Shown: positions 17,049 to 23,780 of the stretch, in pieces | Layout of the letters: every line of letters starts with the position of its first letter | Position numbering within the stretch: position 1 is the stretch's first letter | DNA from: Bdellovibrio sp. ZAP7 | Lineage (GTDB): Bacteria; Bdellovibrionota; Bdellovibrionia; Bdellovibrionales; Bdellovibrionaceae | NCBI RefSeq assembly: GCF_006874645.1 | Contig: NZ_CP030082.1 | Coordinates: 3,100,001-3,164,000 of the forward strand | Reading direction: 5' to 3' | Length of the DNA stretch: 64,000 nt | The notes under the pieces: generated by a model | What the model was told of the DNA's origin: nothing | The model's database searches: none | Seen by the model: only the letters and a program-made list of their open reading frames with translations | Made by a program: the position numbers and the translations under genes

Positions 17049-17141
17049 TGTCAGGAATCAGGACAGAACGGTTGAGCTCATGGGACCGCTCGTGAGCTTC
17101 GAACAATCGAGCCCACGGCATATTTGAATGTGGAGATACTT

Positions 17142-17693
17142 TTGAAACAACAAACTTTTTCTGGAATGCATACGCATTGGAAATATAGACACTGTCATGG
17201 AGGATCTTTGCGGAAATCTCTAAAGGGCCGAGGTGCGCGCCCGCTTTCCAGTAAGGAACCGATTCACCTGGTTTTTAAAGTGAATAAAACGGCGGTTCAC
17301 GGTGGACTGCGCAGTCCTCGGACATTTTCTCTGATCAATAATCTACTGAGAAAATATTCGCGTAAATTCTTTGTCAGTGTTGAGCAACACTCTGTTCAAA
17401 AAGATCACATCCATATTCTTTTGCGCGGAGGAAAACGTTCTCAGCTACAGAGCTTTTTTAGAGTGTTGGCTGGGCAATTCGCGCAGAGATTGACCGATAC
17501 CTTCAGCACCAAACATGAGGGAGAAAAAATCTGGAAGCATCGGCCATTTTCTCGTGTCGTCAAAGGCTACAGGGCGTACAGGATTGTTCGAGACTATATT
17601 CAGCTCAATGAGTGTGAGACTAAGGGCCGTCCCTATTCAAAATCGAGATTGCGGGGATTGACTCAAGAACAGCTCATAGAGCTTTGGAACTAG
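17142..17693 (+). CDS. REP-associated tyrosine transposase (RAYT, Y1/HUH family)
   Basis: A 183-aa protein. DHIHILL (HUH motif, about residues 88-94) and a single Tyr in the helix YRIVRDYIQLNE (about 146-156) are the catalytic features of IS200/IS605-type single-strand transposases. The N-terminal GRGARPLSSKEPIHLVFKV is typical of the RAYT subgroup. TTG at 17142 is preferred because GGAG lies 6 nt before it; a TTG at 17124, GTG at 17130 and ATG at 17166 are also in frame. RAYTs are usually single-copy domesticated genes flanked by REP palindromes, and repeat cores lie just upstream. All motifs look intact. Confidence 0.88.
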   Translation: MKQQTFSGMHTHWKYRHCHGGSLRKSLKGRGARPLSSKEPIHLVFKVNKTAVHGGLRSPRTFSLINNLLRKYSRKFFVSVEQHSVQKDHIHILLRGGKRSQLQSFFRVLAGQFAQRLTDTFSTKHEGEKIWKHRPFSRVVKGYRAYRIVRDYIQLNECETKGRPYSKSRLRGLTQEQLIELWN

Positions 17694-19596: not shown

Positions 19597-19722
19597 ACTT
19601 TTATTGCCACACTTGCATTAAACTTCTGACATCATATTTGCCAAATTACGTGACCTTCATTACGTTAGAATCCATCACGGCTCTGGAGTATAAATTTGTG
19701 CGGATATGAATTGGGAATGAAA

Positions 19723-22098
19723 ATGTCCCACACTTATAATCAAGATCTTGTAGCCTTGTCGGTTTTGATTGCGACAGTGGGCGCCTATGTTGCCCTCAAC
19801 ATTGTACTTCGCATAAAAGAATCTTTAGGAAAAAATAATCGCCTCTGGTTACTGGGCGGAGCCGTTGCGATGGGCCTGGGAATTTGGAGTATGCATTTCG
19901 TCGGCATGCTCGCGATGCAAATGCCAGGAATAGCGATTGGCTATGATCTGCCTCTTTCGATTATTTCTCTATTCGTTGCGATTGGTGCTTCGTTAGTTGC
20001 GTTCTATATCGTCAGTCGAGTTCAAGTTTCTCTTATGGGTGTGATCTTTGGTGGAATCTCCATGGCCGTGGCGATCTCCGGAATGCACTATATTGGAATG
20101 GCCTCGATGCGGATGGCGGCGCGAATTGAATGGCACTGGGATCTGGTTGCCCTTTCTGTCTTCATCGCGGCTTTTGCATCGTTTGCAGCACTTGGGGTTT
20201 CTTTACTTTTTAGAACCACAAAACGAGTGACTCTATTGCATATTCTCTCAAGTCTTTTAATGGGAGCCGCCGTCTCCGGTATGCACTATGTTGGTATGTT
20301 CGCCGCGGACTTTATTCACGAAGAACAACCACTTCCCCCTCACCAAGGAATGGTTTTAGGAACGCAGACTGTTGCTTATGTTGTGACTGCCACCACGTTC
20401 ATGATTTTGCTTGTAGCGTTGATTGCCTCAGGCTTTGCCCGGGTTCTGATTCGTCGTTCGAATGAAGCTAAAGACGCCATCAACAGCCGGGATATCCTTT
20501 TGAAAGAAGCGCAGGAACTTGCCCACCTGGGAAGCTGGGAAAGATCGATCCATGGCACTGAGGTCAGCATATCTGAAGAAATGTATAACATTTATGGTCT
20601 TGATAAAAACACTCACGTCACAGCTGAATTGCTTTTAAGCTATACGGACGCTGTCAACCGCGAAAAAATCAGAACGGCCCTCGAGAGCGCCATTACAACC
20701 AAGTCTCCGCATAATTTTGATCATGTGATTCGCCTTAACGATGGGACGACAAAATACGTTCAAACCCGTGTTCAGGTCGCTTTGGATGATCAAGGTGAAG
20801 TTGTAAAAATATTCGGCACGACCCAGGATATTTCCGACCTGAAGACCATTGAAAATGAACTTCTGAAAACTCAGGCGGAATTAGAATCCCGGGTTCAAGA
20901 AAGAACTGCGGATCTGGAACAAGCTCTGATCCGCGAGAAGAAAGCTAAAGAAATCGCCGAAGAAGCGACAAAAGCTAAAACGACTTTCCTGGCAAACATG
21001 AGCCATGAGATTCGCACTCCTATGAATGCGATTTTAGGATTTGCAGAATTATTAAGTTCCGAAGATCTAACCACGGAACAAGAAGAATACTTAAATCGCA
21101 TCCAAGCGAATGGTGAACTTTTACTGCGAATCATTGATGATATTCTTGATTTAACAAAGTTTGAAGCGGGCAAAATGCCCATTGAAAAAAGCTTGTTGTC
21201 TTATACTGAGCTGGTGAACGAAGTCGTTAGTTCACTGTCATTGATGGCACTAAAAAAACATATCAAAATCGAAGTCGAAAAAACCAGCCAGATGCCCGAC
21301 AACATTTACTCAGATCCCGTGCGCTTGCGTCAGATCCTTGTGAATCTGATTGGAAATGCCGTGAAGTTTTCGAATAAAGGTCCGATAAAAATCAGAATTT
21401 ATTCCCAAAAACTCGAAGGTAAAACTCTGATTTCTACAGAGGTGCAGGATTTTGGTATCGGGATTTCCGAAGAAGGTCAGCGTCAGATCTTTCAAGCTTT
21501 CGGACAGGCTGACACCTCCATCATCCGAAAATTCGGGGGCACGGGACTCGGATTGGTTTTATCTCGTCATTTTGCTCGTGCTTTGGGCGGCAACTTATCG
21601 CTTCTTGAAAGCAAGGAAGACGTCGGAAGCACCTTCCTATTCACCATAACTTCTTCTGACGAAGAGCAAGCCAAGGCAACAGCGCCAAACAAAGCGCTGG
21701 CACCTCAAGCCCCTGTGAGCTTGGCGGATTTTGAGGGGAAAACTATCAAAGTCTTGTTGGCCGAGGATTTAAAGGATAACCAAATTTTAATTGGAATTTA
21801 TCTTCGCTCAAAACATTTCATCGTTTCTTACGCCAACGATGGTTTTGAAGCTGTGAAAATGGCGACCGAAAATGATTACGATATCATCTTGATGGACGTG
21901 CAAATGCCAGGAATGGACGGCCTGCAAGCGACCAGAACTCTGAGAGCTCAAGGATATAAAAAGCCCATCATCGCACTGACCGCCCATGCCCTGCGCGAAG
22001 AAGTAAAAAAGTCCCTAGACGCGGGCTGCGACGCCCACCTGACTAAACCGATCAATCGCCCCGATCTTCTCGGAGCAATTAAAACTTTTGTTTCTTGA
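19723..22098 (+). CDS. MHYT-domain hybrid sensor histidine kinase
   Basis: A 791-aa multidomain sensor. The N terminus is an MHYT membrane sensor of about seven helices with three M-H-x-x-G-M repeats ([33 protein letters not shown]), proposed in the family to bind copper and sense gases. A PAS-like domain follows (about 265-370), then a coiled coil, HisKA with [16 protein letters not shown] (His phospho-acceptor), HATPase with [10 protein letters not shown], and a C-terminal receiver with [12 protein letters not shown] (Asp acceptor) and LTKPI. The output partner is not adjacent. GGGA 6 nt upstream supports ATG 19723; an ATG at 19717 and a TTG at 19696 are alternatives. Confidence 0.9.
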
Positions 22099-22160
22099 AA
22101 GGTCACCCCTTAGGGCTATATTTAAACATTCCCCGCCCCCCATACCCATACTCCGTTAAG

Positions 22161-22342
22161 AGCGCTCAAAAAGGTACAAATGCAAGGCGGAGATGCGAAC
22201 CGTAGCGCAGGCGTGCCCCAGGCACGTCGAAGCGAGGACTCGCACCGATAGAAATCGCAGGAAGCGATTTCTACGCGACAGCCCGAAGGGGTTGGGGCAG
22301 GAGCCCCAACCACAACGCAGCAGTTGTGCCTTTTTCAGCGCT
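22161..22342. repeat. Long inverted-repeat element 1 with internal hairpins
   Basis: The 19-nt arms at 22161-22179 and 22324-22342 are inverted copies with two mismatches. Inside are three perfect hairpins: CGTGCC/GGCACG (22212-22226), GAAATCGC/GCGATTTC (22251-22271) and GGTTGGGGC/GCCCCAACC (22290-22311). The element lies between two convergent genes and its right arm ends 1 nt before the PhoR stop. It may be a MITE-like element, a structured RNA or a terminator for both genes. It shares architecture, but not sequence, with the elements at 42213 and 50152. Confidence 0.7.
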
Positions 22343-22343
22343 A

Positions 22344-23780
22344 TTACTTAATTGGGAAGGCGCAGATGAACTCTGTGCCTACATCTAATTGGGATTTTAC
22401 CGCGACGGTGCCGCCGTGGCTTTGCATGATGTGCTTAACAATCGCTAGGCCCAAACCTGTGCCACCGGCGTCTCTTGTGCGACCTTTATCGATGCGATAG
22501 AAGCGTTCAAACAAGCGATCCAAATGTTCAGATGGGATACCTGGGCCGTCGTCGATCACGCGCAAGATAATGTATTCTTTGATGTCGCGTTCCCAACGGA
22601 TTTGCACAGTCTTATTGTTTGGAATGAACTTCACCGCGTTTGATACGAGGTTGCGCAGGACTTGTTCCACTTTACGCGAATCCGCTTTGAACGGAGGAAC
22701 TTCGCCCACCACACGGATGGCGATGCTTTTTTCGGCGGCCAGGACGGCCATTTCAGAAACCACGTGTTCTGAAATTTGCAGAGGATGAATCAATTCTAAT
22801 TTCAATTCTGAATTTGAAGATTCCATGGACGTCAACGACAACAAGTCATTCACCAAATCCATCAAGCGATCAATGTTGCGAGAAACGATATTGATGAACT
22901 TACCGGCCTGCTCCGTTTGGCCGTTGTTGATGTCTTCTTTCAAAGTATCAACATAACCTTTGATTGATGTCAGTGGTGTGCGCAATTCGTGAGAAGCATT
23001 ACCGACGAATTCGATGCGGATTTGCTCGGCACGTTTCAGCTCCGTGATATCATGGAAAATACCCACGATACCGTAAACCTCGCGGGTCTTCTCGTTGCGG
23101 ATCGGATTGACCGATACCGAGAAAAAGCGCGGTTGGTTGTCGATCAGGGTTGGCAATTTCACTGTGAAGCGTGTGCCCTTACCTGTTTTGATCGTCGTCG
23201 CAAAACCTTCCAGAACATCAGATGAGCGAATCGCATCTTTCAGGCGCAGATTTTCAGTGGAAAGCTGCGGACCTTTCAAAAACTGCGCCGCAAACTGAGA
23301 ATTGAAATAAAGAATTTTTTCATCAAGGCTGACGCTAACCAAGCCTTCCGACACAGAACTCATGAAAGCCTGGGACTCCTCCTGCGCTTGCAGGAAGTTC
23401 GCCTTACGACGTTTCATCTTTTTATGGATTTTATCCAAAGCGACTTCAAGCTCTGACAGGTCATCCGCATCGTCATCCAAAAGATCATCGGCATCTGATG
23501 CCGAAAAGATCTCGCCATAAGCGCGCTTGTTGGAAATACGCAAAGCTTTCAAAATAACTTTATGAATTGGACGAACAAAACGGAACGCGATGATCAAAGA
23601 TACCAAAAGACTGAACATGAAAAAGTTCAGCAGGAAGTCCGTGTACACGAAATCAGCCATGCGATGTTGCGAATCCAAAGAAGCCGCAATAACGAAGGCC
23701 AAGATATTAAAAACAACGACTTGAAAGAAAAATAACTTCCAGAAAAGACGTGACGGAAAACGGATGAAACTCTTCATCAT
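22344..23780 (-). CDS. phoR: Phosphate-type sensor histidine kinase PhoR
   Basis: A 478-aa kinase. Two N-terminal membrane helices (about 10-35 and 45-65) are followed by an acidic linker, a PAS domain (about 130-230), HisKA with FVGNASHELRTPLTSIKG (His acceptor) and HATPase with NLVSNAVKF and GGTGLGLAIVKH. The architecture and the 4-nt overlap with the upstream PhoB-like regulator, behind phoU, support PhoR. It senses phosphate status through PhoU and, in other species, the Pst transporter, which is not in this window. Confidence 0.88.
   Translation of the reverse strand: MMKSFIRFPSRLFWKLFFFQVVVFNILAFVIAASLDSQHRMADFVYTDFLLNFFMFSLLVSLIIAFRFVRPIHKVILKALRISNKRAYGEIFSASDADDLLDDDADDLSELEVALDKIHKKMKRRKANFLQAQEESQAFMSSVSEGLVSVSLDEKILYFNSQFAAQFLKGPQLSTENLRLKDAIRSSDVLEGFATTIKTGKGTRFTVKLPTLIDNQPRFFSVSVNPIRNEKTREVYGIVGIFHDITELKRAEQIRIEFVGNASHELRTPLTSIKGYVDTLKEDINNGQTEQAGKFINIVSRNIDRLMDLVNDLLSLTSMESSNSELKLELIHPLQISEHVVSEMAVLAAEKSIAIRVVGEVPPFKADSRKVEQVLRNLVSNAVKFIPNNKTVQIRWERDIKEYIILRVIDDGPGIPSEHLDRLFERFYRIDKGRTRDAGGTGLGLAIVKHIMQSHGGTVAVKSQLDVGTEFICAFPIK

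Follow-up and report, generated by a model that had tools for sequence, protein, structure and literature searches.

Between two kinase genes transcribed towards each other in this 64-kb window (the whole stretch of DNA analysed here) lies a long palindrome rich in hairpins, which an earlier note took for a MITE, a structured RNA or a two-gene terminator. The locus raises the question of which of these it is, and of how such a structure came to lie directly behind a stop codon.

An interrupted palindrome behind phoR

The setting is as first described. On the minus strand, phoR (22344-23780) encodes a sensor histidine kinase with HisKA, HATPase_c and PAS domains; it is a leading-strand gene with a phoB-like regulator and phoU upstream. 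On the plus strand, a convergent hybrid kinase (19696-22098) combines MHYT, PAS, HisKA, HATPase_c and receiver domains, both assignments resting on ORFs and Pfam. The hybrid kinase stop at 22098 is about 60 nt from one edge of the element, and the phoR stop codon is abutted by the other. The right arm had been said to end, at 22342, one base short of that codon, and it does: phoR, on the minus strand, reaches 22344, two bases past 22342, with one base between.

The 19-bp arms reported earlier are real, although they extend slightly further, to 27 nt each (22157-22183 and 22320-22346); over this length the inverted-repeat search finds them 85% complementary, with 136 nt in between. On the plus strand, the left arm (22157-22183) is the 5′ side of the model strand and consists of a copy-specific outer arm, an unpaired C at 22167, an A-tract at 22168-22172, GG and the basal stem, as read from the inverted repeat, two family alignments (A1 and A2, below) and the bases themselves. 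The conserved core follows (22184-22247), recognized by blastn and by a covariance-model match at 22160-22278; it comprises a AAGGCGGAG internal loop, helix 2, a CGCAGCGCAGG / CGAAGCGAGGA internal loop and an inner hairpin near 22210-22228, which has eight pairs in the predicted RNA fold. Next come 64 nt (22248-22311) that canonical copies lack, with two perfect hairpins from the inverted-repeat search, one of 10 bp (22249-22258/22264-22273) and one of 9 bp (22290-22298/22303-22311), and the linker CGCGACAGCCCGAAGG. The stretch ACAACGCA (22312-22319) is the 3′ side of the conserved basal internal loop, corresponding to the conserved columns CGACAACGCAG in both alignments. The right arm (22320-22346), delimited by the inverted repeat, the sequence and the ORF end, holds the basal stem, a T-tract (22331-22335), an unpaired C (22336) and an outer arm that runs into the phoR stop codon (22344-22346).

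Folded as RNA, 22150-22352 reaches -94.6 kcal/mol on the plus strand (z -8.0) and -93.5 kcal/mol on the minus strand (z -6.0), and on either strand 0/200 shuffles were as good. Rfam yields no match at gathering scores in the 64-kb window; for the element itself its only match is PrrB_RsmZ at 20.5 bits, below the gathering score of 44, and none of the canonical family copies reaches a gathering score. At positions 143-239 of locus L013, both strands match STnc40, a Salmonella sRNA, below threshold (33 bits against a gathering score of 45), and a REP-like hairpin may be the cause. The window contains a single copy of the element. Two further inverted repeats were seen in it, at 42247-42277/42363-42393 (31 nt, 97% complementary, 85 nt between the arms) and at 50097-50180/50242-50325 (84 nt, 71% complementary, 61 nt apart).

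A dispersed and covarying family

The window feature is one copy of a dispersed structured element of about 120 nt. A blastn-type search of its own genome (G000; 4.12 Mb, one contig) returns about 20 significant dispersed matches, and the core at 22184-22247 accounts for matches to about 20 copies. Fifteen uninterrupted copies, aligned without reference to structure (A1), give 43 consensus pairs, with two-sided compensatory changes in 25/43. The covariance model used to search for the family (R1) finds 43 matches in the own genome at E up to 1, or 36 distinct places once strands are merged. The earlier note had proposed such a search, and had named the absence of relatives and of a stable fold as signs of error; both relatives and fold exist. 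At E up to 0.01, R1 has matches in 25/39 genomes, the own genome included, and in 21/24 of the same genus. In a collection of named genomes, which may omit records very near the window, the family-core pattern occurs only in B. bacteriovorus strain kdesi, which marks the genus as Bdellovibrio-type.

A second alignment (A2) holds 104 copies from six genomes. It was fitted to R1, leans towards the structure of that model and includes its training copies; with that bias, pairing is kept in 97.0% of pair cells (slid controls, 30-44%) and two-sided changes occur in 33/43 pairs, with 743 cells changed on both sides vs 192 in shuffles (0/500 as high). In both alignments the outer arms vary in sequence from copy to copy while their pairing is kept, and next to them an unpaired C faces a C, followed by an AAAA/TTTT run. 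The order A-tract, stem, T-tract is present in A2 almost without exception. Conservation is strong in the internal loops AAGGCGGAG / CGACAACGCAG and CGCAGCGCAGG / CGGAGCGAGG, again in both alignments.

The two strands of the palindrome are not equivalent. Wobbles on the model strand are G.U in 367 cases vs A.C in 35 (104 copies), and this bias points to a single strand as the selected form. Among the 100 distinct sequences within the 104 copies, the model strand folds better as RNA in 94/100 and as DNA in 99/100, with a mean strand difference of 3.9 kcal/mol as DNA. One single strand thus appears to be what selection, or a copying enzyme, sees. This strand serves as the leading-strand template. 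It runs antisense to the gene that the element abuts, a sign of single-stranded DNA at least as much as of RNA. For the reading as a structured RNA, covariation supports the structured single strand. Tandem pairs of elements at about 138-nt spacing were observed in one 3.0-Mb genome with no Y1_Tnp hit (G012; L153, L155, L158, L160 and L161).

The window copy scores low against R1 (52.9 bits, E 2.5e-10, match 22160-22278) because it is interrupted. Once the 64 nt at 22248-22311 are removed, it aligns with the family from end to end (76% to the nearest copy, 67% on average to the 104) and takes a family-shaped fold of -59.4 kcal/mol. Two of its three hairpins hence belong to the insert. Part of the insert matches a second hairpin-rich family of the own genome, whose match list includes 3122241-3122306, and matches to L013, L014 and L028 likewise suggest kinship; the two extra hairpins are an insert related to that family and lie in the basal internal loop. 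On the other side of this loop, single extra hairpins occur in other copies too. For instance, copy 2409555 of the own genome carries a precise extra hairpin missing from its counterpart in the closest relative, G022; at the site of G022 copy 2374175 the extra hairpin is in the own genome only, and copy L009/L061 has one in the basal internal loop. The second family itself (L246-L270 in the own genome, e.g. 3624175-3624415) is hairpin-rich: its copies have long ends that pair but differ from copy to copy, enclose hairpins in tandem, and donate sequence like that of the window insert.

Placement, orientation and movement

Three features did not figure in the earlier note: the origin of two of the three hairpins as a 64-nt insert in a family element, the placement behind stop codons and an orientation fixed by replication. 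Placement was assessed with a home-made gene finder in 132 copies with flanks, as a coding-like ORF on the other strand ending near the 3′ edge of the model. The set covers 26/36 distinct places in G000, 24/24 in G022 and, by score, the best 26 of 49 R1 matches in G012, 18 of 35 in G023, 18 of 39 in G002, 16 of 32 in G006 and 4 of 14 in G007, where the two strands of a place may be counted apart in the totals. In 91/132 copies the element is no more than 10 nt from a true stop codon, a count that is, like that for polarity, partly dependent through sites common to close relatives; as background, the share of intergenic positions at such a distance is 3.2% downstream of leading-strand stops and 5.4% downstream of stops in general. 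The 41 remaining copies include 17 that follow a run of at least five T within 30 nt (background 11%), 3 that follow another copy and 21 that do neither.

The A-tract/stem/T-tract anatomy makes a built-in two-way terminator plausible. The two-gene terminator of the earlier note keeps this support from the invariant tracts around the stem; convergent pairs, however, are not the rule (7/26 own-genome copies). A role specific to convergent genes was rejected on the same ground, with 7/26 copies in the own genome and 5/24 copies convergent vs 61/360 junctions generally. A terminator scan gave one weak site vs 0.7 in shuffles.

Orientation follows replication. With replichores set by the positions of dnaA, and by GC skew for the own genome, the model strand lies on the leading-strand template in 127/128 copies from six complete genomes. 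Taking all places in the own genome, 34/36 follow their replichore, the exceptions being 2973315 and 3216604 (only the former falls within the 132-copy set), and this count is already extreme by itself. In G007, a rearranged genome whose GC skew is a mosaic, 1/4 copies follows the rule. The second hairpin family follows the replichore in 11/19 cases (a hand count that leaves out partial opposite-strand and arm-only rows), so repeats here are not polarized in general. Polarity as an echo of gene strand was rejected, since leading genes make up 61% (233/381) and leading transcription-unit ends 55% (119/217), far below 127/128. Copies with no upstream leading-strand gene also follow their replichore (about nine distinct sites, some with doubtful gene calls).

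Comparison with G022, in which PhoR is 99% identical and flanks are mostly 89-96% identical at the nucleotide level, reveals filled and empty sites. At the window site, G022 has the same two genes with overlapping stops and no element. Counterpart loci exist in G022 for 14/26 own-genome places with flanks; the other 12 comprise 10 copy-free sites with orthologous G022 flanks (at 436552 a single side matched), one short remnant (3066225) and one not found in the G022 stretch examined (2188981). Conversely, 11 places appear in the G022 list only, and own-genome flanks were found for 8: five have no copy, 1091201 has a plain hairpin with the same arms, 612357 has arms with no core and 2374175 has a module-bearing copy. 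Site 676113, filled in the own genome, is empty in G022, G021 and G011, while site 497293, filled in G022, is empty in G000, G021 and G011, with a junction that is letter-identical among these three. Being empty in the three other genomes compared, both are most simply gains. The element moves, and copies appear at new sites; the MITE-like reading of the earlier note is borne out by the many dispersed copies, the empty sites in relatives and the two polarized gains.

No target duplication is apparent at the filled and empty sites compared. At 497293 and 676113 the arms came in together with the inserted sequence. In about ten filled/empty pairs, read by eye, both alleles use the same stop codon and diverge directly behind it, with no scars. 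Arms with no core were seen near 9890-10020 of L141 (G022, at the site of G000 3066225) and near 13125 of L146 (G000, at the site of G022 612357); these are probable internal deletions or a smaller form. Insertion into the loop of a pre-existing terminator, considered as a source of the copy-specific arms, is not the rule, as the empty sites of 497293 and 676113 have no matching palindrome. It may have occurred at 1091201, whose alternative allele is a simple hairpin that shares the arm sequence.

Possible origins and relation to known systems

Taken together, the element is best read as a non-coding mobile repeat of Bdellovibrio-type bacteria, one that folds as a single strand, is spread at the replication fork and is kept behind stop codons as a putative two-way transcript end, with a probability of roughly 0.7. 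The fork would expose it as single-stranded DNA, and an enzyme recognizing the folded strand would move it; the leading candidate for this enzyme is a RAYT-like transposase of the HUH/Y1 type. Copies would be retained just behind stop codons, where A-tract, stem and T-tract would end transcripts from both sides, and the window copy would keep the transcripts of phoR and the convergent hybrid kinase apart. Orientation set by replication, a fold on one strand and no apparent target duplication are together what single-strand DNA transposition gives, as in IS608/ISDra2 and REP/RAYT. Against this reading stand the position of the folded strand on the leading template, 3/4 exceptions in G007, the two own-genome exceptions, the 41/132 copies away from stops, three element-bearing genomes with no Y1_Tnp hit (below) and the single weak site of the terminator scan.

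A real possibility, with the odds somewhat against it, is that the family is a divergent REP/REPIN moved by the RAYT (Y1 HUH) transposases of the genome. There are ten Y1_Tnp genes in the own genome and 12 in G022; one of RAYT type, encoding 189 aa, lies in the window on the plus strand (17124-17693), some 4.5 kb away from the element, and 2/10 in the own genome have a copy within about 0.5 kb (3041103, 525639). The motif GGCGGAG precedes helix 2 in 91/104 copies, and compensatory changes are also reported in the cited section on REPINs (PMC3116915). The other 8/10 RAYT genes, however, have no copy close by, and G012, G016 and G008 hold 49, 19 and 8 element matches with no Y1_Tnp hit. The abundance of the element thus appears uncoupled from such genes. 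The GT[AG]G head that defines REPs, at the foot of the hairpin, was found at no fixed place, occurring anywhere in 38/104 copies on the model strand and 16/104 on the other, so the element is not filed under REP/REPIN. It is also longer, with more conserved loops, than REPs, which measure 20-40 bp. A reverse transcriptase was rejected as mobilizer: PF00078 occurs in only 4/24 genomes of the genus, with the own-genome hit below the curated cut-off.

For the polarity, a fair rival account is selective survival: copies in the reverse orientation, with the better-folding strand on the lagging-strand template, would be deleted by slippage or hairpin nucleases. The strand kept off the lagging template is indeed always the better-folding one, and deletion derivatives exist (3066225 in G022, L127 and 612357). 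This account is nevertheless somewhat unlikely, given that the average difference between the two strands, folded as DNA, is only 3.9 kcal/mol and that the second hairpin-rich family has no polarity. Tentative, and less probable again, is a novel class of mobile element, single-stranded and coupled to replication, with its folded form on the leading-template side, that would target the 3′ ends of leading-strand genes (stops or spent terminators), use an enzyme other than known RAYTs, bring its own two-way transcript end and accumulate nested hairpin modules.

A vertically inherited two-way terminator or 3′-UTR RNA family, whose presence and absence would reflect mainly loss, is improbable. Such inheritance accords with the invariant tracts around the stem, the position behind stop codons, the 14/26 places in common with G022 and the remnants and core-less arms (3066225, 612357), but it fits poorly with two sites polarized as gains and with alleles that diverge scarlessly behind the stop; nor does it supply a reason for following the replichore or for a stronger-folding strand antisense to the abutting gene. 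That the palindrome is a lone chance repeat or simple private terminator, as its single copy in the window might suggest, can be dismissed in view of the family, its covariation, the fold z-score and the 36 genome places.

How small palindromic repeats move, and why they sit at gene ends, is still argued, and such repeats fill many bacterial genomes. The present family, from a predatory bacterium, combines strong covariation, datable gains, a clear preference for one strand, sharply defined placement and an orientation tied almost absolutely to the direction of replication, a combination that makes insertion bias, survival bias and terminator function separable by experiment. If copies end transcripts, each insertion rewires the 3′ end of a gene, here that of a phosphate-type sensor kinase against another kinase.

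Among the papers searched, none was found to describe this family in Bdellovibrio; the cited part of a B. bacteriovorus transcriptome study reports eight attack-phase sRNAs (PMC3627812). Among known systems, two-way intrinsic terminators share the A-tract, stem and T-tract readable on both strands; the element, by contrast, moves, is scattered over the genome, has conserved internal loops and obeys an orientation rule, and its likeness to terminators is one of anatomy. MITEs and pneumococcal BOX/RUP-type repeats are similarly small, non-autonomous, multi-copy and palindromic at their ends, and MITEs share the presence of copies at sites empty in relatives. Unlike them, the element has no apparent target duplication, and its ends are paired but not conserved in sequence: the outer arms differ between copies, in place of the conserved terminal inverted repeats of MITEs, and an autonomous parent was looked for as Y1_Tnp only.

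REP/REPIN sequences with RAYT, from Pseudomonas, E. coli and Stenotrophomonas, are described in the cited sections as dispersed, non-coding extragenic palindromes often located directly downstream of ORFs (PMC3116915, PMC3733652, PMC2817692), and REPs downstream of genes, as well as REP-supplied stop codons, are known (PMC3733652). The element works like them, being extragenic, multi-copy and palindromic, with compensatory changes in its stem, tandem copies and RAYT-type genes in the same genome, but has no conserved GT[AG]G head. It further differs as one long hairpin of about 120 nt with conserved internal loops, in an abundance apparently not tied to Y1_Tnp genes and in its near-absolute replication polarity.

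The last comparison is with the IS200/IS605 family. IS608-type elements use the lagging-strand template, according to the passages cited (PMC6006769), whereas the better-folding strand of the element is the leading-strand template; it also has no transposase inside, and one hairpin vs two ends. In IS608 and ISDra2, as described in the same source, a hairpin is recognized as a single strand and orientation is tied to replication (PMC6006769), and it is these features, a single-strand hairpin and a replication-tied orientation (127/128), together with the lack of apparent target duplication, that the element shares.
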